Of a DNA stretch of 28,294 nucleotides, positions 10,433 through 23,522 are shown in pieces. Source of the DNA: a virus; IMG/VR virus record IMGVR_UViG_3300025379_000056, positions 1-28,294 of that record; one strand, 5' to 3'. Under the pieces are notes generated by a model. It made no database searches, was not told the DNA's origin, and saw nothing but the letters and a program-made list of their open reading frames with translations. Numbering within the stretch: position 1 is the first letter of the stretch; the number at the start of each line of letters is the position of its first letter. The position numbers were made by a program, and so were the translations under genes.

Positions 10433-10996
10433 TTACGCCAAAAGGCTTTTGGCGACCGTGAGGCGGTTTTCCCATCCGGCCAAGAATTTAGCTTGGGAAG
10501 GGTGTTCCGCCACGAGGTCTTCGTAATGACGCCGGATCTTGGCAAGGAACGCCATGCAGAGCCCTGTCGTGTCATGGACGGCAAAGGCGGCTGACCGTGT
10601 CTGGTCCCCGAGCGCGCCATCGACCGCGATCCGCGCTCCGTAGTCGTTGCAGGCCAGTTGGAGGTATCGGATCGCGGTGGCAATGCCGACATTGACCCCC
10701 TCAAAAAACACGATTTCTTGCACGAGGACCGGAAGCCCGGTCAGTTTTTCCCAATAGTTGGAAAAATAAACCCGTGCAACGGCATGCGGATCGGGCGATT
10801 CGGTCACTTCGCCATCTTTGAGCAAGAGTCCGGCAAACGTCGGGCCCCCCGAGTCTCCGGCGACATTTTCCCATTCGATCTGCCCCGTGACATGATTCAG
10901 TTCGCATTCCCAATCGAGCACCAGCTTTAGGGCGATCCGAAATCCGGCCGGGTAACCGTTGGCTAGGGCCGCCATGAGGATTTCGCTTTTCGTCAT
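10433..10996 (-). CDS. GH108-type endolysin (N-acetylmuramidase)
   Basis: A 187-residue lysozyme that cleaves the glycan of peptidoglycan at the end of infection. Residues about 17-60 carry the family's start: LVLDWECELN with the putative catalytic Glu30, then AGDSGGPTFAG, matching the DPGG-T-G block. The C-terminal FFEGVNVGIATAIRYLQ and VDGALGDQTRSA match the predicted peptidoglycan-binding domain that follows the GH108 catalytic domain. There is no signal peptide, so it would need a holin. The family usually has EGG where this protein has ECE. Confidence 0.85.
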   Translation of the reverse strand: MTKSEILMAALANGYPAGFRIALKLVLDWECELNHVTGQIEWENVAGDSGGPTFAGLLLKDGEVTESPDPHAVARVYFSNYWEKLTGLPVLVQEIVFFEGVNVGIATAIRYLQLACNDYGARIAVDGALGDQTRSAAFAVHDTTGLCMAFLAKIRRHYEDLVAEHPSQAKFLAGWENRLTVAKSLLA

Positions 10997-11015
10997 GGTT
11001 TTTTAAAAAAGCGAT

Positions 11016-11021
11016 TGTCAA
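11016..11021 (-). promoter_or_regulatory. TTGACA element before the endolysin gene
   Basis: TTGACA on the minus strand within TTTTTGACAATCG, 19 nt before ATG 10996. The leader between them is A/T-rich and has no Shine-Dalgarno. Confidence 0.6.
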
Positions 11022-11053
11022 AAATCTTTTTTTAAAATTTAAAAGGTTTTGTG

Positions 11054-11082
11054 TTGACAATATACGCAGGCCGCGCAATGAT
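11054..11082 (+). promoter_or_regulatory. Sigma-70-type promoter of the rightward cassette
   Basis: A perfect TTGACA -35 (11054-11059), a 17-bp spacer and AATGAT as -10 (11077-11082, 4 of 6 matches). It lies in the divergent gap and would start RNA around 11089. Confidence 0.65.
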
Positions 11083-11096
11083 TCACGCAGATCGGA

Positions 11097-11153
11097 ATGA
11101 ATTCTGAACTCCCGCCGGAGGGAATCCGGAACAACGAAAAAACGACAAAATGA
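11097..11153 (+). CDS. 18-codon upstream ORF (leader peptide)
   Basis: A short ORF (MNSELPPEGIRNNEKTTK) starting a few bases after the predicted transcription start. Its TGA overlaps the ATG of the next gene as ATGA. The main gene has no Shine-Dalgarno, so its translation may depend on this ORF. It contains a small hairpin, CCGGA-GGGAA-TCCGG. Confidence 0.45.
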   Translation: MNSELPPEGIRNNEKTTK

Positions 11154-11668
11154 AAATTGGAAACAGAGTAAAAATGACCTCCGAAAACTCAAATTGGGTT
11201 GTTGGAGAAAACGGAACTATTACTGAAATTCTTGAAAAAGAAGGAAAAGTTGTAATTGCGTTTGACGGACGCGAAGACGATTACACCGTTTTTGTAAGTG
11301 ATTTTAAAATTGAAATTCCACTTCCTATTGGAAAGCTCGTGTTCGTCCCAGAAGAAAAAACCACTGCAACCATATTAAATCATTTTACAAGTTCAAATGG
11401 AGGATACGGTTATGAGTTAAAGTTTTCCGACGGAGAAGAAGGAAATTATTTAGCCAACGAAATTTCAGAAATTCCTCAACTTTTAAAAAGATTTCGTTTG
11501 TATTTGAATGGAAAATATTTTCATGGAGGATACGACTCTTTGGAAGAAGCAAAAACAGAGATTCCATTTATTGTTAAAGGATTTTCAAAAGAAGATATTT
11601 TGAAAATAAGTCCTTTAAAATGGAGTATTCAAGATATTGAAGAAAACGAAACAATCATAATTTCATGA
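11150..11668 (+). CDS. AT-rich hypothetical protein, moron
   Basis: A 172-residue protein on the minority strand. Codon use is strikingly A/T-rich compared with the neighbours, indicating recent acquisition. It begins MKIGNRVKMTSENSNWVVGE followed by GTITEILEKEGKVVIAFDG: a KOW/SH3-like small barrel pattern, repeated more weakly at GKLVFVPEEKTTATILNHF. The C-terminal part has FRLYLNGKYFHGGYDSLEEA. Function unknown. It is coupled to the RHH gene that follows. Confidence 0.65.
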   Translation: MKIGNRVKMTSENSNWVVGENGTITEILEKEGKVVIAFDGREDDYTVFVSDFKIEIPLPIGKLVFVPEEKTTATILNHFTSSNGGYGYELKFSDGEEGNYLANEISEIPQLLKRFRLYLNGKYFHGGYDSLEEAKTEIPFIVKGFSKEDILKISPLKWSIQDIEENETIIIS

Positions 11669-11850
11669 CAGTTTTTTCTTCAAAAGGCGGACGGCCGCCA
11701 AAATCAGGCGCAGAAATTGCAGGAAGTCACCTTCACATGAGGGTGACTCGAGATCAAAAAGCTGCTTATGTTCGCGCGGCCGTGGCAGAGAAAAAAAAAC
11801 TCTCAGAATGGGTCTGCACGCACCTGGATGCTGCCGTAAATAAAAAATAA
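11665..11850 (+). CDS. Small ribbon-helix-helix-like DNA-binding protein
   Basis: A 61-residue protein: SKGGRPPKSGAE, then a strand LHMRVTRDQ and two helices (KAAYVRAAVAEKKKLSEWV), the pattern of CopG/Arc-like proteins (LHMRVTRDQ for DNA contact). The ATG overlaps the TGA of the AT-rich gene. It may repress its own promoter in the divergent gap or a phage promoter. Confidence 0.65.
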   Translation: MTVFSSKGGRPPKSGAEIAGSHLHMRVTRDQKAAYVRAAVAEKKKLSEWVCTHLDAAVNKK

Positions 11851-12933: not shown

Positions 12934-12939
12934 TGTCAA
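12934..12939 (-). promoter_or_regulatory. TTGACA element before the lysis genes
   Basis: TTGACA on the minus strand 16 nt before ATG 12917; its TGA is the stop codon of the upstream gene. No Shine-Dalgarno follows. Confidence 0.6.
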
Positions 12940-13466
12940 GTATGCGGGATCTCCGACATCAGTTCTGAAAACGAATACCCCGGAAAAGCGGGCGCATCGC
13001 TTCCGCTAGCCACGGCAACCTGAACCGCTTGGACCCATTGTTCAGTTTCCACGAGCTTTGGGTAGTTCGACTGTTGCCCTGCCGCAGTGGCGGCAGACAG
13101 CTTTAGATAAAGGGCGAAAAGTTGGTTCGCGTCGTATGCGAAGGAGAGGGCGATTTGAACTTTATCGGCTAGAAATTGCGCGGCGTCCGAGTCGAGTGAA
13201 GGCGACCAATCTTGCGACTGGTTGCGGTTGGGACCGACATCGACGATTTTCATGGCCGAAAACCCAAACGGCCACCGGATAATCCCGGTCACGCGAAATC
13301 CCGTGACTGTTTGATCCCCTTCTAGCGTACTGTAGGTATCTGTCATCACGGTTGCGATCGTGCCGTCAGGCCACCCCGGTATCGCAGACACAGCAACAAA
13401 TTGGGGGTCTTCCGTAGCTGTTGAAACTGCGGTTGAGATTGCCGTATCGAGGAGTGACGTATCCAT
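12936..13466 (-). CDS. Hypothetical protein at the end of the tail-fibre block
   Basis: A 176-residue protein, no recognised domain. The N-terminus is Ser/Thr/Ala-rich (TAISTAVSTATEDPQFVAVS); the middle has IIRWPFGFSAMKIVDVGPNR. It starts five bases after the stop of the LamG gene. Position suggests a virion-associated or fibre-associated protein. Confidence 0.6.
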   Translation of the reverse strand: MDTSLLDTAISTAVSTATEDPQFVAVSAIPGWPDGTIATVMTDTYSTLEGDQTVTGFRVTGIIRWPFGFSAMKIVDVGPNRNQSQDWSPSLDSDAAQFLADKVQIALSFAYDANQLFALYLKLSAATAAGQQSNYPKLVETEQWVQAVQVAVASGSDAPAFPGYSFSELMSEIPHT

Positions 13467-13471
13467 GTTCT

Positions 13472-14215
13472 TTACGGGGTTGAAGCGAACGAGGAGAACG
13501 GAAGTCCCGCGCCAGCATTGTAGAGGGAAGTCACTTCGCTGGCCGTCAAAGCGCGGCTCCAGTACCCGACTTCATCGAGAAGCCCCACATACTGAAGGGC
13601 CGTGTTGCTATCGGTTGAGTCGCCTAGCGATATTCCATTAAAGTTTTGCGCGGCAGACGTGACAGCCGCAGTAACCGGGGTTCCCGCATCAGTATAGAGC
13701 TTCAAGGTAGCCCCATCCCACGTCATAACTCCGTGGTGCCAGTTGTTGTCTGTTACCGTTGTCGTGCTTGCCACGGCCACGTTGTTTACAACTGCTCTAA
13801 ATTTAGTAGTTGCAGAACTATGGGAGAAATTAAACTCAATACCGTTTGTGGCATTATTCGTCGTCAATTCTGGATAGGAAGCCGTCTGGGTACTTCCTTT
13901 TGCCCACAACGAAATTGAAAAAGCAGTCAATGAAGCCGGGAGTGTCGCTACAAGTCGTTTAGGACCAGACGCAAAGTTCGCGCATCCCGTCCCGAGTTTC
14001 ACAGTTGCGGTGCTAACCGCCACAGAATTGACGTTGGTGAGCGTGTAACCATTACCCGTCGCATCGACTAGCGACAACGCGCCTGCATTATTGTCTAACT
14101 GGTAATATGCGATGATATTCGTGAGTAGCGTGGTCGGGTTGGCGGCGATACCAAGGTTTTGTTTTTGCATTCCGACGGAGTTGCCGGGTCGGATCGGCGC
14201 GCTCAGGTTGATCAT
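13472..14215 (-). CDS. LamG/concanavalin-like tail protein, likely receptor binding
   Basis: A 247-residue protein with a laminin-G-like jelly-roll: YYQLDNNAGALSLVDATGNG at about 38-57, FSISLWAKGS at about 98-107, WHHGVMTWDGATLKLYTDAG, and the signature ending LLDEVGYWSRALTASEV then LYNAGAGLPF. Such domains bind carbohydrate, so host-surface attachment is the likely job. ATG 14215 overlaps the stop of the repeat-containing fibre gene. Confidence 0.75.
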   Translation of the reverse strand: MINLSAPIRPGNSVGMQKQNLGIAANPTTLLTNIIAYYQLDNNAGALSLVDATGNGYTLTNVNSVAVSTATVKLGTGCANFASGPKRLVATLPASLTAFSISLWAKGSTQTASYPELTTNNATNGIEFNFSHSSATTKFRAVVNNVAVASTTTVTDNNWHHGVMTWDGATLKLYTDAGTPVTAAVTSAAQNFNGISLGDSTDSNTALQYVGLLDEVGYWSRALTASEVTSLYNAGAGLPFSSFASTP

Positions 14216-15114
14216 GTCAGGGCGGTGACCAGGATGGACTGCGACCCTGTTGAGGTGACCGCGGAAAGCGCGCTCGTTACGTTGGAAAGCGACACCAAAT
14301 CGCCCTGGACGAGATAAAATGAATAAGTCGAGGTCGTGGCCGTGGCCCCGATGGCGACATACACCGTGGTCGATCCGGGGTTAAAGAGGGTAACCGCCTT
14401 GGTCGATCCCGAAGCCGCCAGCAAAGTCGTGTTGGAAGTCGTCACGGAAACCGAAGTGATCGCAGGGGATGAGGAGGTCGGCAGGGCAACCGTTCCACTG
14501 ACGGGCTGCGTGACCGCGGAGCCATCGACTTTCACGGCCGTGGCATTCCCCCCCACAAGACTGACCGATCCAATGGTATTGGCACCGGAAGGCAATGCCG
14601 GAAGCGAGGAAACCCCCACGTTCCCGCTGACGGGCTGCGTGACGGCGGACCCATCGACTTTCACGGCCGTGGCATTCCCTCCCACAAGACTGACCGATCC
14701 AATGGTGTTGGCCCCGGAAGGCAATGCCGGAAGCGAGGAAACCCCTAGGTTGCCACTGACGGGCTGCGTGACCGCTGAGCCATCGACTTTTACGGCTGTG
14801 GCATTCCCTCCCACAAGACTGACCGATCCAATGGTCGCTGATCCTCCGCCCAAAGTGACCGTCGACGGAGCATTGGCCGGAGCCACTCCGTCATCGATGT
14901 AAATGGTCAAGGGATCATAACCGGCATAACCCGCCAAAGTGATGACGGAATTGGCTCCTTGCGTATAAGAAGAGGGAGCTGGTCCTCCCACGGAATACAA
15001 AACTTTCCCAGTAACGGGATCCGCGATCAAAAGAACTTGCGAAAGCGGGATGTTCAACCCCGTGAGGGTGACGCTGGACCCGTTGGTCGTGTAGTTGGTG
15101 ACAAGTTTTTTCAT
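14212..15114 (-). CDS. Tail-fibre protein with 43-residue repeats
   Basis: A 300-residue Ser/Thr/Val/Gly-rich protein of fibrous type. Residues 94-207 are two and two-thirds copies of a 43-residue unit containing TIGSVSLVGGNATAVKVDGS, AVTQPVSG and SLPALPSGAN. The N-terminal MKKLVTNYTTNGSSVTLTGL and TGKVLYSV resemble fibre attachment segments; the C-terminal TLFNPGSTTVYVAIG looks like a beta-sandwich. The ATG overlaps the preceding stop. Repeats of this type usually build a beta-helical or trimeric shaft. Confidence 0.7.
   Translation of the reverse strand: MKKLVTNYTTNGSSVTLTGLNIPLSQVLLIADPVTGKVLYSVGGPAPSSYTQGANSVITLAGYAGYDPLTIYIDDGVAPANAPSTVTLGGGSATIGSVSLVGGNATAVKVDGSAVTQPVSGNLGVSSLPALPSGANTIGSVSLVGGNATAVKVDGSAVTQPVSGNVGVSSLPALPSGANTIGSVSLVGGNATAVKVDGSAVTQPVSGTVALPTSSSPAITSVSVTTSNTTLLAASGSTKAVTLFNPGSTTVYVAIGATATTSTYSFYLVQGDLVSLSNVTSALSAVTSTGSQSILVTALT
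14494..14835 (-). repeat. Tandem 129-bp repeat, 2.65 copies
   Basis: Units at 14707-14835 and 14578-14706 plus a partial 84-bp unit at 14494-14577. They are nearly identical at DNA level (the block reading gtcagtgggaac... differs at only a few positions between copies), so expansion by slippage or recombination was recent. Confidence 0.85.
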
Positions 15115-16001
15115 GACAAAGCGAGGGCAAAAGCAATGGATTGAGCGATCGACGCCGCACCAATATCAGACGGAGATAAAGAATCCGAACCACCTGTCGC
15201 GTGGGTCGCTTTGTGCGCCGAAGGCGTGAATGTCGTCGGCTTGTTGGCGATCGATGATATTCCTGACGAAGCATTCCAATCCGCATTGACTTGCGCGGAC
15301 GGGATCGTCGGTTTGTTGATCAGGTCGGCGTAAGATCCCGAGGTCGCCACCGTAGCAAGGCCAGAAATCAACGAAACCGGCGCTGAAGAAAGCGTGGCGA
15401 ACGCCCCCAGACCTGAAATATCGGAATTCGAAAGCGACACGGAACCCGTTTTCCCGGCCACCGAAAGCACAGGGAAAGCCGGAGGGTAATTTACTGCAAA
15501 CAGATTTCCCGAAGCATCAATCCCAGCGGTTCCGCCCGCAATGGATAGAGAATTGAAAACCGCATCCGATCCCGGAGTCAGAAACCCGACGTCGTTGGAA
15601 AACGCCCCCAGGTTACTAGGCCAGCCGCCTCCAGAGCTTTGAGCGTAATCGGCGCCGGTAACTAGGGCAGGATTGCCATGGGCATCTTGAACATAGCCGT
15701 TGTTCAAAACGCAAACGGGATGCCCACCCACATTGGCATCCGAAAAATTCCCAGAGCCAAGGGAATCAATTACAGCAACGTCATTTCCTATCGACAACGA
15801 ACCAAAACGAACGTTGCTGTCGTGATTGAGACTCTGATCGGCAGAAACCCCAGGATCGCCTTGCGGCCCCTGGTTTCCTTGTTCGCCCTGCGCGCCGGGT
15901 TGGCCCGGGAGACCCACGTTCAGGGTTTCCAAGACGGACGCCACGCCGGAGACCGAGACCTCGATCACCGAGGGGATGACCGTGACATTGAGGTCAGGCA
16001 T
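15111..16001 (-). CDS. Collagen-like tail fibre protein
   Basis: A 296-residue fibre. After a short beta N-terminus (PDLNVTVIPSVIEVSVSG), residues 30-51 hold seven G-x-y collagen triplets (GLPGQPGAQGEQGNQGPQGD), which trimerise. Later parts contain LSNSDISGLGAFATLSSAPV and SYADLINKPTIPS, the motif family common in phage fibre shafts (SDITGLG, DLxNKPTIPS), then KATHATGGSDSLSPSDIGAA. ATG 16001 overlaps the adaptor gene by 8 bp. Confidence 0.8.
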   Translation of the reverse strand: MPDLNVTVIPSVIEVSVSGVASVLETLNVGLPGQPGAQGEQGNQGPQGDPGVSADQSLNHDSNVRFGSLSIGNDVAVIDSLGSGNFSDANVGGHPVCVLNNGYVQDAHGNPALVTGADYAQSSGGGWPSNLGAFSNDVGFLTPGSDAVFNSLSIAGGTAGIDASGNLFAVNYPPAFPVLSVAGKTGSVSLSNSDISGLGAFATLSSAPVSLISGLATVATSGSYADLINKPTIPSAQVNADWNASSGISSIANKPTTFTPSAHKATHATGGSDSLSPSDIGAASIAQSIAFALALS

Positions 16002-16363: not shown

Positions 16364-17392
16364 CTAGACCGGCACAAAAGGTCTGGCCGTTTGACGCAGA
16401 TGCCCGCGGAATTCGCCTTCCGTCTCATGCCAGGCATGGTGATGGACGATCTCCACGGTTCCCGGATCGGACGAAGCTTTCGGCTTGATGTGATCGCACG
16501 CCACATGAGGCACGCAGGCGATCCGGATCCCCGCCGGATACCAGCGCCGCCAGCAGAGATAAAGATCCTGCGTCCCGCGGCCGTCGTACCCGGTGAAGTC
16601 GGCATGGGCCAGCGCTTCCTTGGACAGGAGCGTCGCCCCGAGACCACACCAGTCACTTGGAACCACCGCCCCCTCACCGACGCCGGGATAGGCAAAATCG
16701 AGCCACCCGCGCCGCCGCCACCCATGCTCGGCGATGACCTCCCAGATCGAGCCGGTCGGAGATTTGCTCCGGATCCGATCCCGCAGCCTTCCCAGGCGCC
16801 GGAATTCCTTTTCCCCGGTCTGCCTGGTGGCCGGAGCTTTGAGCCGCGCCTCGCACGTTTCCAGGCAGAGTCGCAGCCGTGCGGAAAGGTTGCGCTCCTT
16901 GGGAAGGAAATCCTCGGCGATCGGATGCGAGGGTGTTCCGAATCCGCCGAGGAAAAGCCCGTTCGGATAGGTCGCGGCCGCCACCCCGTAGAGCGGCCGA
17001 CCGTCGGCCCGGGGCATCTGGAGCGTCCATTCGAGCACCCGGAGCGCATGAGCCGGGAGAATCGTGTCGCTTTCCACGGACAAGCAAACCGAAGCCCGGA
17101 TCTTGCGCGCAAAGGCAAAGCCGCTTCCCTGCAGGCGAGCGATGCGACACTGCGCCGCGGCCTTGTAGTCTTTTCCATCCGAGGCGATCGGATGCTTCAG
17201 CACCGTGACTTTCCACCCCTCCGGGAGTTCCCGTTTGGCCAGCTCCGCCGCGGCGGATCCCGCCTCACTCTCATCGGTCACAAAAATGAAATGCGCCTCC
17301 TCATGATGCGCGGCCGTGGCCGTGATGGCCCGCAGGCATTGGGGCCAGGCGTGCAGATACCCTTTGGTCGCGGCAGTGACGATCGCCAGCAT
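16364..17392 (-). CDS. GT-A-fold glycosyltransferase
   Basis: A 342-residue enzyme that probably transfers a sugar from a nucleotide-sugar donor. Visible elements are an N-terminal strand MLAIVTAATKGYL, a metal-binding acidic motif VESDT at about residues 106-110 (D-x-D-like), DWCGLGATLLSKEAL near 247-261, and GTQDLYLCWRRW at about 273-284, where the acidic residue would be the catalytic base, followed by PHVACDHIKP. ATG 17392 overlaps the stop of the tail gene upstream (TGATG), so the longer start is rejected. It sits inside the tail operon, between tail-tip and fibre genes, suggesting that virion proteins are glycosylated or host surface glycans altered. Confidence 0.7.
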   Translation of the reverse strand: MLAIVTAATKGYLHAWPQCLRAITATAAHHEEAHFIFVTDESEAGSAAAELAKRELPEGWKVTVLKHPIASDGKDYKAAAQCRIARLQGSGFAFARKIRASVCLSVESDTILPAHALRVLEWTLQMPRADGRPLYGVAAATYPNGLFLGGFGTPSHPIAEDFLPKERNLSARLRLCLETCEARLKAPATRQTGEKEFRRLGRLRDRIRSKSPTGSIWEVIAEHGWRRRGWLDFAYPGVGEGAVVPSDWCGLGATLLSKEALAHADFTGYDGRGTQDLYLCWRRWYPAGIRIACVPHVACDHIKPKASSDPGTVEIVHHHAWHETEGEFRGHLRQTARPFVPV

Positions 17393-18405
17393 CAGTAGAA
17401 ATAGCTTCCCGTGTAATTCTCGAACCCCCCGTATCCGCCTGTAAAAATCACAGGCGGCTTGAGCCACGCCACCGGCGACACCGCCAGAACGTTCCCTGAA
17501 TCGATGCTGAAAGAGTAGGAGGTGCCGGTCGAGGCGGTCAAAAGCGTAAACGACGAGAGGATGGTCCCCTCGGAATCGGTGAAATTGCTCGTGACGCCGA
17601 GACCCGCCGGGACCGATCCGGTATAATCGACCGAAACGGTCCAGACCTGTCCGCCCGCCAGATCGATCGTGTCGGCGTAAGAGCCCACATATTGCGATTC
17701 CGCGTTCACGCCGTTCCCGGAAATGGCCAACGCCACCGCCGTGCTATACGTCGTGCTCGAGGAGGATTCGGGAAAAACCGTCGAGAGGGAAAGGTGCAGC
17801 GTCTCCGTCAACGAAGCGACCGAGGACTCCGTGATGCTGTTGGGATAACTGACAATTCCGGCTTGGTCGGGATGGAGGGACGCCGTGACCACGGACGGGA
17901 AAATCAGATTTCCCACCTGAGAGCCAAGATAGGTCACGCCCGACTGATAGGTCGTGCCGGAAAAGGTCCACTCGGCCTGATTGTCTGCAAAATTCCCTTG
18001 CGGAATGTTTCCAAATTGCGGCCGGGAAGAACTCGTGAGATGCCCCGAGAGATCGTACCCGACATCCCAGACCGCCGTGCTGTAGGTCGCATAGGAAAAG
18101 GTCGACACGGTGGCGGCCGACAGGACAAACCCCTCGAATCCGGCCGTGGTCGTCCGGAAAGCTCCCGTATACAGATCCCCTCCTTGTGTCGTGCCCGTTT
18201 CAACCGTCGCCGTGATGAAATCCGATTCCGAGGAAAAGAGGGTCGAATAGGAAGCGGTCGTTTCCATCAACTGCGACTCGGTGCCCGAAAAAGAAATCAC
18301 CTGCGAAGTCGTGCTCAGGGTTTCCAGCGTCCAGCTGGTCGCCCCATGCCACGATCCGACGGCTGTCGTCGTGGTTTCCGGAAAATCAGGCAACGCAAAC
18401 GCCAT
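17392..18405 (-). CDS. Beta-rich tail structural protein
   Basis: A 337-residue protein very rich in Ser, Thr, Tyr and Gly with almost no Lys, typical of a virion beta-structure protein. Segments include QVWTVSVDYTGSVPAGLG and a Gly/Tyr-rich end (GGYGGFENYTGSYFY). No family is recognised. It starts one base after the preceding stop and its own stop overlaps the glycosyltransferase start. A tail-tip or fibre component is likely. Confidence 0.6.
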   Translation of the reverse strand: MAFALPDFPETTTTAVGSWHGATSWTLETLSTTSQVISFSGTESQLMETTASYSTLFSSESDFITATVETGTTQGGDLYTGAFRTTTAGFEGFVLSAATVSTFSYATYSTAVWDVGYDLSGHLTSSSRPQFGNIPQGNFADNQAEWTFSGTTYQSGVTYLGSQVGNLIFPSVVTASLHPDQAGIVSYPNSITESSVASLTETLHLSLSTVFPESSSSTTYSTAVALAISGNGVNAESQYVGSYADTIDLAGGQVWTVSVDYTGSVPAGLGVTSNFTDSEGTILSSFTLLTASTGTSYSFSIDSGNVLAVSPVAWLKPPVIFTGGYGGFENYTGSYFY

Positions 18406-19602: not shown

Positions 19603-20303
19603 GAGAGTTCCCCGGTTCCGGAACCGGTCCCGGTCGTGCCATAGAGATCCTGACTCCAGCCCTGCGGGCCCGATCCGCGCCATTCCCGGGTGACGCGCCA
19701 CATATTCGGAGCCACCGGATCGGCCTGCGCCCCCACCAGCAGGAACGTCCGCCCCCCCAGCGCCGGAATGTTCCCTTGGGGCGATCCGATTTTTCCGACA
19801 TTCGAAAGATCGGGAAACGAGGTTTCATCGGCCACGGTCTGGATATTCACGCTCGGGATCAGGTAGGAGTCCTGTCCTTTCAGGCGCTTCTGCGCGTAGA
19901 GTGCCAGCCCGGCGCTCTCGGTCTGAGTGGCCAAGGCCACGAATTGTTTCGGATCGGCCTCCGCCTGCGAGATCGCGGTCTTGTCCTTGTCGGTCAGCGC
20001 ATACGTTCCGGTCTGGAAAAGGGGATGCGTGATCAAGGGCTCGGGGGTGACGATCCCCGTGCAGACGACGCCGGGCGATCCCGGAGGCGTGGCCGCGGTG
20101 CCATCGCCGCCGAGGCCCGAGGCATACTGTCTCCAGGTATGACGCGCTTCCCCTGGGGAATAGGTGACCGAATACTCCATGACGCCCGAAGAGGGAGGCG
20201 TGAACGATCCGGTGTAATCGACATAGGTGATCTGCTCCACGAAGGCGTTCAGCCTCGGGTCCCAGACCTGCTCGCTCGAAACGTAGGCGGGCGCGCTGCT
20301 CAT
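19599..20303 (-). CDS. Tail-tip protein, paralogue A
   Basis: A 234-residue protein, start MSSAPAYVSSEQVWDPRL. It shares colinear motifs with the following gene, including PLITHPLFQTG and WRVTREWRGSGPQGW near the C-terminus. ATG 20303 overlaps the tape-measure stop as TGATG. It occupies the place where distal tail or tail-lysin genes are usually found, but I see no similarity to those families. Confidence 0.65.
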   Translation of the reverse strand: MSSAPAYVSSEQVWDPRLNAFVEQITYVDYTGSFTPPSSGVMEYSVTYSPGEARHTWRQYASGLGGDGTAATPPGSPGVVCTGIVTPEPLITHPLFQTGTYALTDKDKTAISQAEADPKQFVALATQTESAGLALYAQKRLKGQDSYLIPSVNIQTVADETSFPDLSNVGKIGSPQGNIPALGGRTFLLVGAQADPVAPNMWRVTREWRGSGPQGWSQDLYGTTGTGSGTGELS

Positions 20304-21826
20304 CAGGGGGAGACGGCCGCGTGGTACATCCAACCGGCATCCCCGCGGTTCTTGGCAATGATGGCGAGGTACTGGTTGGCCTGTTGCTGCGCGGCCAGTT
20401 GCTGGCGCTGGATGTCACCCAGGCCGAGAAACGCCGAGAATCCTCCACCCCCCACCTTGGCAAAACTGTCGGCGATGATCTGGGACTGTCCCTTGCCGAT
20501 CTCGGAGGCATCGAAGGGTGCCTGGGATCCGGCGGCAGGGGCTTTCCGGTTGGCTTCCTCGCGGCCCTTGGCATTGGCCTCGATCGTGGCGGCCGTGGCC
20601 GTCACCACAGGCCTGAACGCCTGGACAAACTGATCGGAAAGCCCTTTCAGTCGGGAAGAAAGGTCCATGCTCTGAGCCAAATCCCGCCGGTTCTGCGCAT
20701 TGCTGGCGATCGTGTCGGACACGGCGCTGTTCCCCTGCTGCACTTCTTTGACTGTTTTTCCAAAGTCGCCGTTGCTGAATCCCGCGCCTTCATACAACGC
20801 GGCCAACGTCGGATTGCCCCCGGCCTGAAGCGTTTTTTCCGTCGTGAACTGAATTGCGGCTTGAATGTAATCCAACGGCGTTTTCAACGACCGTAAGATT
20901 GCATCCCCGAATTTACTGGCGATGATGAGCAGTTCCGCGCCGAACACTTTCAACCCCTCGGGACTGAAAATGATGTCGAAAGATTGGCCGATGTATTCGA
21001 CGATCTTGTTCCATTCATCGGGGAAATTCGTGAAAGCATTCCCGATGGCATTCCCGATTTCCTGACCCATGGCGGACAAATCGAGTTTTTCAAACTCTTC
21101 GATGGCCCCGTGCAACGCGGGAATGAACTCCGAACTGATCCCGACGAAAAATCCCTGAAGCTTCGACCCCACATGACTCAGGGCCTCATGCGCTTCCTTG
21201 AAGCTGGCGGCATTTTCGCCGAGCAACTTGGCCGTGGCGGAAATGTTCCCGGCATTCTGAAACGCCGGGCTCTGAAACACGGCCAGAAGCTCGCCGCCGC
21301 TTTTCCCGAAGATCTGCATCGCCGCCGCCGCGCGCTCGGTCGCATTCGGCAACTTGGCGATGGCCGCGCCGATCGCTTCAAACGCTTTTCCGGGATCCTG
21401 ACCGGCCAGCTTCTTGGCATCGAGGCCGAGACCTTGGAATAACGAAGCGTCCTTGCCCCCGGAAGCCGCTTCGGCCAGCGCTTTCTGCATCTTGTTGACC
21501 GCAGGCCCCAGTTTCTCGGCATCGACCCCGGCATCCCGGAACGATTTTCTCAGCATGACCAGATCCTGGACGGCCACGCCGGTCCGCGCGCTGAGATCCT
21601 GCATTTCGGCACCCAACTCGAGGGATCCCGAGATCCCCTTCATGACCGCCCCGACGCTGCCGATGGCCGCGGCGACCTTGGCAATCGGACCGATCAGGTC
21701 GCCGAAAGCACCCTTGGCCGTTTTCCCGGCAAAGTCCTTGATAACATTCCCGGCACGCGCGGCGGACTGGGTCAGCGGGGAGATGTCCCCGCCGAACACG
21801 GTCATGATGGATGCGTCGGCCGCCAT
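20303..21826 (-). CDS. Tail tape measure protein
   Basis: A 507-residue mostly helical, Ala-rich protein with several hydrophobic stretches (LIGPIAKVAAAIGSVGAV, FGAELLIIASKFGDAIL), as expected of the protein that sets tail length and helps DNA passage. The motif ARTGVAVQDLVMLRKSFRDAG is characteristic of these proteins. At about 1.5 angstrom per residue it implies a tail near 75 nm, short for a siphovirus. It follows the chaperone and a minor tail gene. A TTTGACT variant of the recurrent element lies 13 nt before ATG 21826. Confidence 0.85.
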   Translation of the reverse strand: MAADASIMTVFGGDISPLTQSAARAGNVIKDFAGKTAKGAFGDLIGPIAKVAAAIGSVGAVMKGISGSLELGAEMQDLSARTGVAVQDLVMLRKSFRDAGVDAEKLGPAVNKMQKALAEAASGGKDASLFQGLGLDAKKLAGQDPGKAFEAIGAAIAKLPNATERAAAAMQIFGKSGGELLAVFQSPAFQNAGNISATAKLLGENAASFKEAHEALSHVGSKLQGFFVGISSEFIPALHGAIEEFEKLDLSAMGQEIGNAIGNAFTNFPDEWNKIVEYIGQSFDIIFSPEGLKVFGAELLIIASKFGDAILRSLKTPLDYIQAAIQFTTEKTLQAGGNPTLAALYEGAGFSNGDFGKTVKEVQQGNSAVSDTIASNAQNRRDLAQSMDLSSRLKGLSDQFVQAFRPVVTATAATIEANAKGREEANRKAPAAGSQAPFDASEIGKGQSQIIADSFAKVGGGGFSAFLGLGDIQRQQLAAQQQANQYLAIIAKNRGDAGWMYHAAVSP

Positions 21827-21840
21827 GCTACCCCGTCAGA

Positions 21841-21846
21841 GTCAAA
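21841..21846 (-). promoter_or_regulatory. TTTGAC(T) variant element before the tape measure gene
   Basis: TTTGAC followed by T on the minus strand. Counting the sixth base of the element, 13 nt remain before ATG 21826, the same spacing as the exact TTGACA sites. Its TGA is the stop of the upstream gene. Confidence 0.4.
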
Positions 21847-22384
21847 TGCCGCGCACGCGGATTCCGGGATAGCGTTTGGCGATCGTCGAGACCTTTGAAA
21901 ACACCTCTTTTTTCACATTTGTGCGGAAGTATCCGACGCGGCCATTGATGGCGCGCAGAAGCGCCGTGCGCCCATTGGCATTGATGGCCGTGAGCATGGC
22001 ATTCGTGATCCGGATCTGGAAACTGCCCCGCGATCCCTTCGTGACCCCTTTCACCTTCTGCGGGTAGGCCTTGCCCTTCACCGTGGCGTTCCGGGCATAT
22101 CCCGGCAGATCGAGCTCGATGCCGACTTGCGCCGCCACGGCCGCCCAGGATTGCTTGGCAAGGCCCCTGCGGGCCTTGAGTTCGGCAAAATGCGCCTTGT
22201 GCAGCGTTCCCTTGGCCACGCGCGCGTTCAGCTTTGCCACGCTGGCGGCCACCGTGTTGCTGACGGTTTTTTGCAAGACCGACTTGGTCTCCGCCGTGAT
22301 GACTTGCGAAAGCGTGACTCCCGAAAGCCGCGAGAGGTCGCGCACCATGGCATTGAACTTCGAGGTGTCGACGCGGAAACTCAT
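21842..22384 (-). CDS. Minor tail protein
   Basis: A 180-residue basic protein: MSFRVDTSKFNAMVRDLSRL followed by a helical region and YPQKVKGVTKGSRGSFQIRI. The opening, a short beta strand then a helix on small-domain tail proteins, resembles gpZ/HK97-gp10-like tail-completion proteins, though in those phages the gene lies upstream of the chaperone. ATG 22384 overlaps the chaperone stop and has GGAGGAAG just before it. Confidence 0.55.
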   Translation of the reverse strand: MSFRVDTSKFNAMVRDLSRLSGVTLSQVITAETKSVLQKTVSNTVAASVAKLNARVAKGTLHKAHFAELKARRGLAKQSWAAVAAQVGIELDLPGYARNATVKGKAYPQKVKGVTKGSRGSFQIRITNAMLTAINANGRTALLRAINGRVGYFRTNVKKEVFSKVSTIAKRYPGIRVRGI

Positions 22385-23045
22385 TCTTCCTCCGTGAAGT
22401 CGAATTCCGAGAGATCAAAGGCCGCCACGGCCATCCGCAGGTCGACCGGATCGGCCAGGCGGGAATGCGCCGGAACGGTCCAGAGATCGTGACTCCGCAG
22501 CGCCGCATGGTAGTAATGCAGTAGGCGGGAAAAGGGGATTTCCCACAGTAAGGCCCGTTCCGGCCAGCCCGTCTCCTTCGCCAGCGTGAAGATCATGCTG
22601 GCGATCCAGACGGGCTCTAGGAGTTTGGGGGAGGGGTCTCCTTGCTGAGGCCCGCGGAGGGCTTGGCCTCCACGGTGACGCTGGCCGCCGCCACTTGCTC
22701 GCTGCGGCGGCGGATCTCATGGATCGCCTTTTCAAAGACCGAGAACGGAACCGAAAAGGAAAATGCGTCCACCGCCTGGCGAAAGGCTTCGTCATTTCCG
22801 CAGGCAATCAGCACTTCCGGCATCGGTGCGGCGTGGATGAAGAGGAACGCCATCATCTGCCAGGCCTGCTCGGCCTCCGTGGCGGCCGCTTTCCCGGTGA
22901 ACAGGGTCAGGCCCCGACGCTCGGCCATGAGATAGCTGCCGGTCGTGAAGGGGCGCAATTTCAACCCCTCGATCTCATGCGAGTCGGGTTCCAAGAAAGC
23001 CGAGAACTTTAGGTCCTCGGCGGCGGCGGGATCATGGTGGCTCAT
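22381..23045 (-). CDS. Tail assembly chaperone, frameshifted long form (gpGT-like)
   Basis: A predicted 221-residue product made when ribosomes slip back one base at CCCAAAC (22629 to 22623, read on the minus strand). It contains residues 1-141 of the short form followed by LLEPVWIASMIFTLAKETGW and the segment PERALLWEIPFSRLLHYYHA, which has the GWP...L..IP look of gpT domains. The -1 frame is open across the join and runs on to 22381. Chaperones of this kind coat the tape measure before the tail tube forms; the gene lies one gene upstream of the tape measure, as expected. Confidence 0.85.
22566..22629 (-). promoter_or_regulatory. Programmed -1 frameshift signal
   Basis: The slippery heptamer C CCA AAC lies in the reading phase needed for -1 slippage. 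A 6-nt spacer (TCCTAG, including the zero-frame stop) is followed by a stem-loop. Its outer stem is AGCCCGTCT with AGACGGGCT (9 bp, 22608-22616 with 22566-22574). A 3x3 internal loop (GGA/AGG) follows, then an inner stem TCGCCAGC with GCTGGCGA (8 bp) and an 11-nt loop. Heptamer, spacer and stem all fit the classical arrangement. Confidence 0.9.
22617..23045 (-). CDS. Tail assembly chaperone, short form (gpG-like)
   Basis: A 142-residue product terminating at the TAG just after the slippery site. It contains LKLRPFTTGSYLMAERRGLTLF and AWQMMAFLFIHAAPMPEVL, a helical protein with the 'score/threshold' type pattern of gpG-like chaperones (length of lambda gpG is 140). The C-terminus is Pro/Thr-rich (KPSAGLSKETPPPNS). 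It starts ten bases after the preceding gene. Confidence 0.8.
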   Translation of the reverse strand: MSHHDPAAAEDLKFSAFLEPDSHEIEGLKLRPFTTGSYLMAERRGLTLFTGKAAATEAEQAWQMMAFLFIHAAPMPEVLIACGNDEAFRQAVDAFSFSVPFSVFEKAIHEIRRRSEQVAAASVTVEAKPSAGLSKETPPPNS

Positions 23046-23054
23046 AAAACGGTC

Positions 23055-23522
23055 TTAGGAAAACTGACGCAGCAGTTTTTCGGCATTCTCATCGGGGACC
23101 AGAGTCCCGTCCTCGGCGCGGCGTGTCGTCAACGTGAAGATCCGGCCGCCGCGCGTGATGCGGACCTGCGGGCTCTGCGACGCAATCTGGTTCCGGAGTT
23201 CCCCGAGATTCTCCTGGTACGCCTTCATCCAGGAGATCGGGTGATCGGGATTGGCCAGGCACCAGGGCCGATCCCGCCAGCGGCGCAGGAATTCCTTGGT
23301 GGAAATCGTTTCGCCGCCAATGTCGATCGGTTTCTCTTTCAGCAGCCAGGTGACCGTGCGGCGCGATTTGCCCTGGTCATCCTTGGAAAGCGTGTGCTGA
23401 TATCCGCCCGGCTGGCAGAGCTCTCCTCCGGCCGTCAAAAGCGCCGCCACGACGTGCGTGTTGGGAGAAGCCAGTGGGTTCTCCTCGTCTTTCAGGAACT
23501 GGTAAGTTTCCCCGGGCTTCAT
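23055..23522 (-). CDS. Hypothetical tail-region protein
   Basis: A 155-residue protein, start MKPGETYQFLKDEENPL. It has RRTVTWLLKEKPIDIGGETI and a C-terminal VRITRGGRIFTLTTRR. No family is recognised. Position between tail-tube candidates and the chaperone suggests a virion or assembly role. A TTTGACC element precedes the start. Confidence 0.6.
   Translation of the reverse strand: MKPGETYQFLKDEENPLASPNTHVVAALLTAGGELCQPGGYQHTLSKDDQGKSRRTVTWLLKEKPIDIGGETISTKEFLRRWRDRPWCLANPDHPISWMKAYQENLGELRNQIASQSPQVRITRGGRIFTLTTRRAEDGTLVPDENAEKLLRQFS

Follow-up and report, generated by a model that had tools for sequence, protein, structure and literature searches.

Programmed −1 ribosomal frameshifting is a very widespread and well-known mechanism. 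In phage lambda, tape measure protein loading and tail tube protein recruitment are carried out by gpG and gpGT, which are needed at a ratio of about 30:1 (PMC5009743). Efficient slippery heptamers in Escherichia coli end in AAG, C_CCA_AAG being an optimal bacterial heptamer whereas CCCAAAC is not, and AAC in the A site slips less well than AAG (PMC4066793). Published mean distances from heptamer to zero-frame stop are 26 nt and 36 nt (PMC10885494). In a coronavirus, a zero-frame stop nearby raises frameshifting and moving it away lowers it, an effect attributed to RNA refolding and not to slippage at the stop (PMC8168617).

Here, we examined a candidate frameshift site in the window, that is, the whole stretch of 28,294 nt of viral DNA analyzed (IMG/VR record IMGVR_UViG_3300025379_000056). 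We conclude with high confidence that a tailed phage here uses programmed −1 ribosomal frameshifting to express a tail assembly chaperone gene pair of the lambda type. The new part is the chaperone family, which is unmatched in Pfam and PHROGs; the family, its absent annotation, and its close stop are of some value.

Anatomy of the probable frameshift signal

The signal lies on the minus strand. The G-like ORF, a proposed tail assembly chaperone gene (23045 to 22617), runs from an ATG at 23045 to a TAG at 22619 to 22617 and encodes the zero-frame product of 142 amino acids. Its final codons are CCC CCA AAC TCC TAG, and the slippery heptamer CCCAAAC (22629 to 22623, read C_CCA_AAC), with its phase verified in the ORF, stands in the phase required for tandem −1 slippage. 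The zero-frame stop follows 3 nt past the heptamer, within a 6-nt spacer (TCCTAG, 22622 to 22617). Directly after the spacer begins a putative stimulatory hairpin of 51 nt (22616 to 22566), consisting of a 9-bp outer stem, an internal loop, an 8-bp inner stem, and a 3-bp tip. The −1 frame is free of stops from 22716 to 22381, and the slip product would be a fusion of 221 amino acids whose C-terminal part is the T-like region (22623 to 22381), predicted to be helical. These elements had been described in the original prediction (a correctly phased CCCAAAC, a TAG inside the spacer, a two-tier stem-loop of 9 and 8 bp, and a −1 frame open to 22381 giving a 221-residue form beside a 142-residue form), and every coordinate and length proved exact, the tip of the hairpin being an addition.

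In the mechanism that we propose, most ribosomes would terminate at the TAG and release the 142-residue G-like protein. A minority would be delayed when the hairpin reaches the mRNA entry channel, and the tRNAs paired with CCA and AAC would then re-pair with CCC and AAA; these ribosomes would read on in the −1 frame and produce the G-T fusion. If lambda is a guide, the G part may form a coat on the tape measure protein, and recruitment of tail tube subunits may fall to the T part. We infer both the frameshift efficiency and the chaperone function from position and analogy.

When in-phase X_XXY_YYZ heptamers were counted with Y restricted to A or T, 10 were found in 8,622 codon positions of 41 likely genes in the window, and CCCAAAC at 22629 to 22623 was the sole one lying less than 100 nt from the end of its gene. 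The chance of such a heptamer falling 0 or 3 nt ahead of a given stop is about 0.002. The hairpin has a minimum free energy of −36.0 kcal/mol (z = −5.3 against dinucleotide shuffles), and its energy was matched by none of 500 synonymous-codon redraws keeping the −1 peptide and by none of 500 permutations of synonymous codons.

A Shine-Dalgarno-like AAGGAG (22643 to 22638), 8 nt upstream of the heptamer, is a candidate stimulator. It is equally placed in two related records, L001 and L002 (L numbers denote related records throughout), and is not retained across all lineages; synonymous redraws did as well in 138 of 300 cases, and selection on the element was not demonstrable. Elsewhere in the window, a further in-phase heptamer of the efficient kind, CCCAAAG, lies in an ORF at 12936 to 13466 (minus strand), 117 nt ahead of the stop of that ORF.

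Conservation of the junction among relatives

Three queries were used to gather relatives: the T part, the gene that follows it, and an alignment of four fusions. The junction is spanned by 36 related records, comprising 35 viral contigs and Akkermansia phage Moulinsart (L040, ON453896); L039 stops short of the junction and is uninformative. Many contigs are near copies, and 15 representative junctions, the window's included, were compared. The G protein alone as query returned no relatives, nor did an alignment search of bacterial and archaeal genomes. Verrucomicrobia phage P8625 was considered as a relative and rejected, a homologous junction not being found in it by eye.

In all 36 junction-spanning records, the T-like part is in the −1 frame relative to the G-like part, and an in-phase heptamer is present, with the zero-frame stop 0 or 3 nt past its end. 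The heptamer itself differs: CCCAAAC occurs in the window, L001, L002, L007/L008, and L038, GGGAAAG in the L009-L026 group, GGGAAAC in L003 and the L027-L037 group, and AAAAAAC in Moulinsart, and the stop is TAG, TGA, or TAA depending on the lineage. That the heptamer varies while the architecture stays constant argues against an accidental string inherited by common descent. The original prediction had named relatives with a broken heptamer and a closed −1 frame as the evidence that would speak against it; what we found instead was phase, stop, and open −1 frame kept in 36 of 36. It had also proposed conservation of heptamer and stem in relatives as a check; conservation holds for the in-phase heptamer throughout and for the presence of a hairpin at the site in most lineages but not for the base pairs, which differ.

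The T region is under protein-level selection, as judged from substitutions in the 60 nt downstream of the slip site. In 7 of 10 related-lineage pairs, almost every codon difference is synonymous in the −1 frame, and synonymous differences are very rare in the other two. The ratio of synonymous to nonsynonymous differences in the −1 frame is 4:0 for the window with L001, 4:0 for the window with L002, 8:0 for L001 with L002, and 8:0 for L033 with L035; in such close pairs, the same differences are almost all nonsynonymous in the other two frames. The pattern is less clear in more distant pairs, e.g., L012 with L023. The fusion proteins align without a break across the junction, with an L-x-x-P-x-W motif directly after it. 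Sequence comparison argues very strongly that frameshifting takes place, and the signal is real, correctly described, and very probably functional.

Hairpins across lineages

With spacings of 4 to 10 nt tried, a stem opening 4 to 9 nt (mostly 6 nt) past the heptamer could be drawn in all 15 junctions, with pairs that differ among them. Support against synonymous redraws was strong (at most 12 of 500) in the window, L001, L002, L007, L038, and L040, middling in L003, L012, L023, L033, and L035, and weak or absent in L009, L026, L027, and L031, the hairpin of L026 being not beyond chance by this measure. RNAalifold found no consensus structure across the family, and covariation on the window's own structure was not above that in shuffles; a single conserved RNA structure family-wide is thus unsupported by either method. 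It is fair to say that a hairpin recurs at this place, without conserved base pairs, in most lineages.

Where the A site holds AAC, hairpins tend to be stronger than in the GGGAAAG lineages, whose slip codon is the better one in bacteria. We offer a trade-off between slip codon and hairpin as an idea drawn from one or two evolutionary events only.

Proximity of the zero-frame stop

The distance from heptamer to zero-frame stop is 0 or 3 nt in every lineage, far below the published means. Within the L027/L031/L033 group, the stop has been moved or retyped while the −1 peptide was kept or nearly so: CTA GTG (TAG at 0) and CTC GTA (TAG at 3) both encode Leu-Val, and CTG ATT (TGA at 0) encodes Leu-Ile. 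With each −1 peptide fixed and codon usage taken into account, a stop would fall at 0 or 3 nt by chance with a probability of 0.06 to 0.61, depending on the lineage. A selective role for the close stop is plausible from these comparisons, and it falls short of proof because the conserved Leu-x-x-Pro peptide favors such stops and the lineages are not fully independent. We put forward only tentatively, as a possibility somewhat against the balance, that selection acts on the stop as one element of the signal, keeping it no more than one codon away from the heptamer while heptamer, stop type, and hairpin pairs turn over. If so, it could clear zero-frame ribosomes at the foot of the hairpin and let the hairpin refold, as proposed for a coronavirus, or it could alternatively contribute a termination-linked slip.

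The natural swaps of heptamer (CCC, GGG, or AAA, with AAC or AAG), the relocated stops, and the replaced hairpins form a panel for measuring the efficiency contributed by each element in bacteria. Its special use would be to ask how near a stop may stand to a slip site.

Alternative explanations

A variant compatible with programmed frameshifting is that the slip is mainly termination linked, the ribosome waiting, and then slipping, with the stop in the A site or beside it, which would make the stop codon an active element of the signal. The constant distance of 0 or 3 nt, the near-silent substitutions that relocated or changed the stop in the L027/L031/L033 group, and the drop in frameshifting in a coronavirus when the stop is moved away (PMC8168617) all speak for it. 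However, one sense codon stands between heptamer and stop in the window, and the stop would thus be outside the A site when CCA and AAC can slip in tandem. The coronavirus effect is, moreover, explained by refolding, and codons for Leu, Val, and Ile, conserved in the −1 peptide, favor stops at these positions, at the per-lineage chances given above. We consider this variant unlikely, though deserving of more weight than the alternatives that follow, which would do away with a programmed ribosomal slip.

The T-like part could be a separate gene with its own ATG (22596 to 22594), with translation re-initiated or coupled downstream of the G stop and no frameshift involved. An in-frame ATG does lie near the G stop, 33 nt past the heptamer start, in the window, L001, and L002, and the annotation of Moulinsart has two separate coding sequences. 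The start codon is not conserved, however. The first in the T frame lies 9 to 198 nt past the heptamer start, depending on the lineage, and at 96 nt (L023 and L026) and 198 nt (L038) it is past both the conserved P-x-W and helix 1; this variable position, beyond the conserved motif in several lineages, speaks against separate initiation. The L-x-x-P-x-W motif is conserved ahead of any start codon, with changes there synonymous in the −1 frame, no Shine-Dalgarno sequence is evident by eye before the ATG of the window, which sits inside the hairpin, and separate initiation leaves the heptamer in every relative unexplained. We regard it as very improbable. A single ORF broken by faulty sequencing or assembly, or by a frame shift that inactivated it recently, would likewise show up as two ORFs in differing frames, but 36 related records, with differing heptamers and stops, share the −1 relation at this very place, and the T region is selected as protein; judged by these relatives, this explanation is already refuted, and we give it next to no credence. 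Hardly more credible is a change of frame by transcriptional instead of ribosomal slippage. The run of six A's in L040 and the CCCCC followed by AAA in the window would suit it, whereas relatives with GGGAAAG or GGGAAAC have no runs longer than three at the site, and a ribosomal signal would agree both with the conservation of triplet phase and with the hairpin about 6 nt further on. Programmed −1 ribosomal frameshifting is our preferred reading, and what weakens it is the AAC slip codon, the weak support for the hairpins of the GGGAAAG and some GGGAAAC lineages, the absent consensus pairing, the absent match in Pfam and PHROGs, and the low score of the predicted G fold against the HK97 chaperone 2OB9.

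Gene neighborhood and protein families

In the window, the chaperone pair lies upstream of the gene for a tail length tape measure protein (20303 to 21826, minus strand; phrog_8462, E = 5.5e-16), and a tape measure gene lies downstream of the pair in seven of the eight relatives checked. Between the T-like part and the tape measure gene is a gene for 180 amino acids (21842 to 22384, minus strand), whose ATG overlaps the −1 stop (ATGA); it has a homologue in L003, and relatives have a gene of similar size at the same place. Just upstream of the G-like ORF is a gene for 155 amino acids (23055 to 23522, minus strand), again with a gene of similar size there in relatives. The portal protein of the window belongs to the lambda family (PF05136).

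The G-like family comprises at least 15 lineages and has a G-x-K-x-R-P motif. Neither G nor T matched any family in Pfam or PHROG, and sequence profiles found no relative of solved structure. Foldseek gave no match to the fold of G below E = 0.001 in PDB or BFVD, N15 GT being among its weak viral fold matches (E = 1.4), and the fold search with T gave no useful match.

Several other features of the window were observed. An ORF at 14212 to 15114 (minus strand) has near-identical tandem repeats (GANTIGSVSLVGGNATAVKVDGSAVTQPVSG), and beside it is a collagen-like Gly-x-y stretch within 15111 to 16001; both are probably tail fiber genes. Also in the tail region, 16364 to 17467 (minus strand) has a weak glycosyltransferase-like match (PF13641, 7e-05), under the cutoff of that family. 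Overlapping, protein-like ORFs of 172 and 61 amino acids occupy 11150 to 11850 on the plus strand, in a stretch rich in A/T runs, unlike nearly all other likely genes of the window, which are on the minus strand; this stretch is possibly a recently gained insert.

Comparison with known systems

The locus resembles lambda G/GT (G_GGA_AAG) in having a short ORF and a −1 ORF ahead of the tape measure gene, a heptamer that stands in phase close to the 3′ end of G, and a G protein of similar length (140 amino acids in lambda and 142 in the window). It differs in the heptamer, in the stop, which stands 15 nt past the heptamer in lambda but 3 nt past it in the window, and in the extra 180-residue gene before the tape measure gene. 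Profile alignment by hhalign to lambda was not significant (E = 0.29 for G and 0.1 for T), and the register of the T helix with that of lambda T was reached by 175 of 5,000 shuffles. Since sequence homology to lambda gpG and gpT is not demonstrable, “gpG/gpGT-like” refers to gene order, ORF architecture, and the frameshift. The lambda-type arrangement claimed in the original prediction accordingly stands as a layout upstream of the tape measure gene, qualified by the extra gene and by the homology that we did not find. Its word “textbook” suits the phase, stop, hairpin, and −1 frame, but less so a heptamer that is not optimal and a stop that is unusually near.

The predicted model of G (pLDDT 71) reaches the HK97 tail assembly chaperone (2OB9) at just Z 2.7 over 91 residues, with an rmsd of 7.3 and 7% identity; 2OB9 was one of just three PDB chains to attain Z 2 in a structural second look, and homology is not evidenced by that match alone. 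The system in PMC5009743, from other hosts, is likened to ours by its heptamers: the three of them also occur among the window's relatives, and mixed use of AAC and AAG is therefore already documented.

Akkermansia phage Moulinsart (ON453896) has a homologous G (29.9% identity; E = 0.1 in the collection search and 2e-5 locally) and a T part in the −1 frame, though with three genes ahead of the tape measure gene and not one as in the window. Its 10632 to 11090 and 11120 to 11332 are annotated as two separate hypothetical proteins. The AAAAAAC, the immediate TAG, and a 51-nt hairpin 6 nt downstream suggest that they are one frameshifted gene, and in the window phage, its relatives, and Moulinsart alike, the two adjoining ORFs can be annotated as such.
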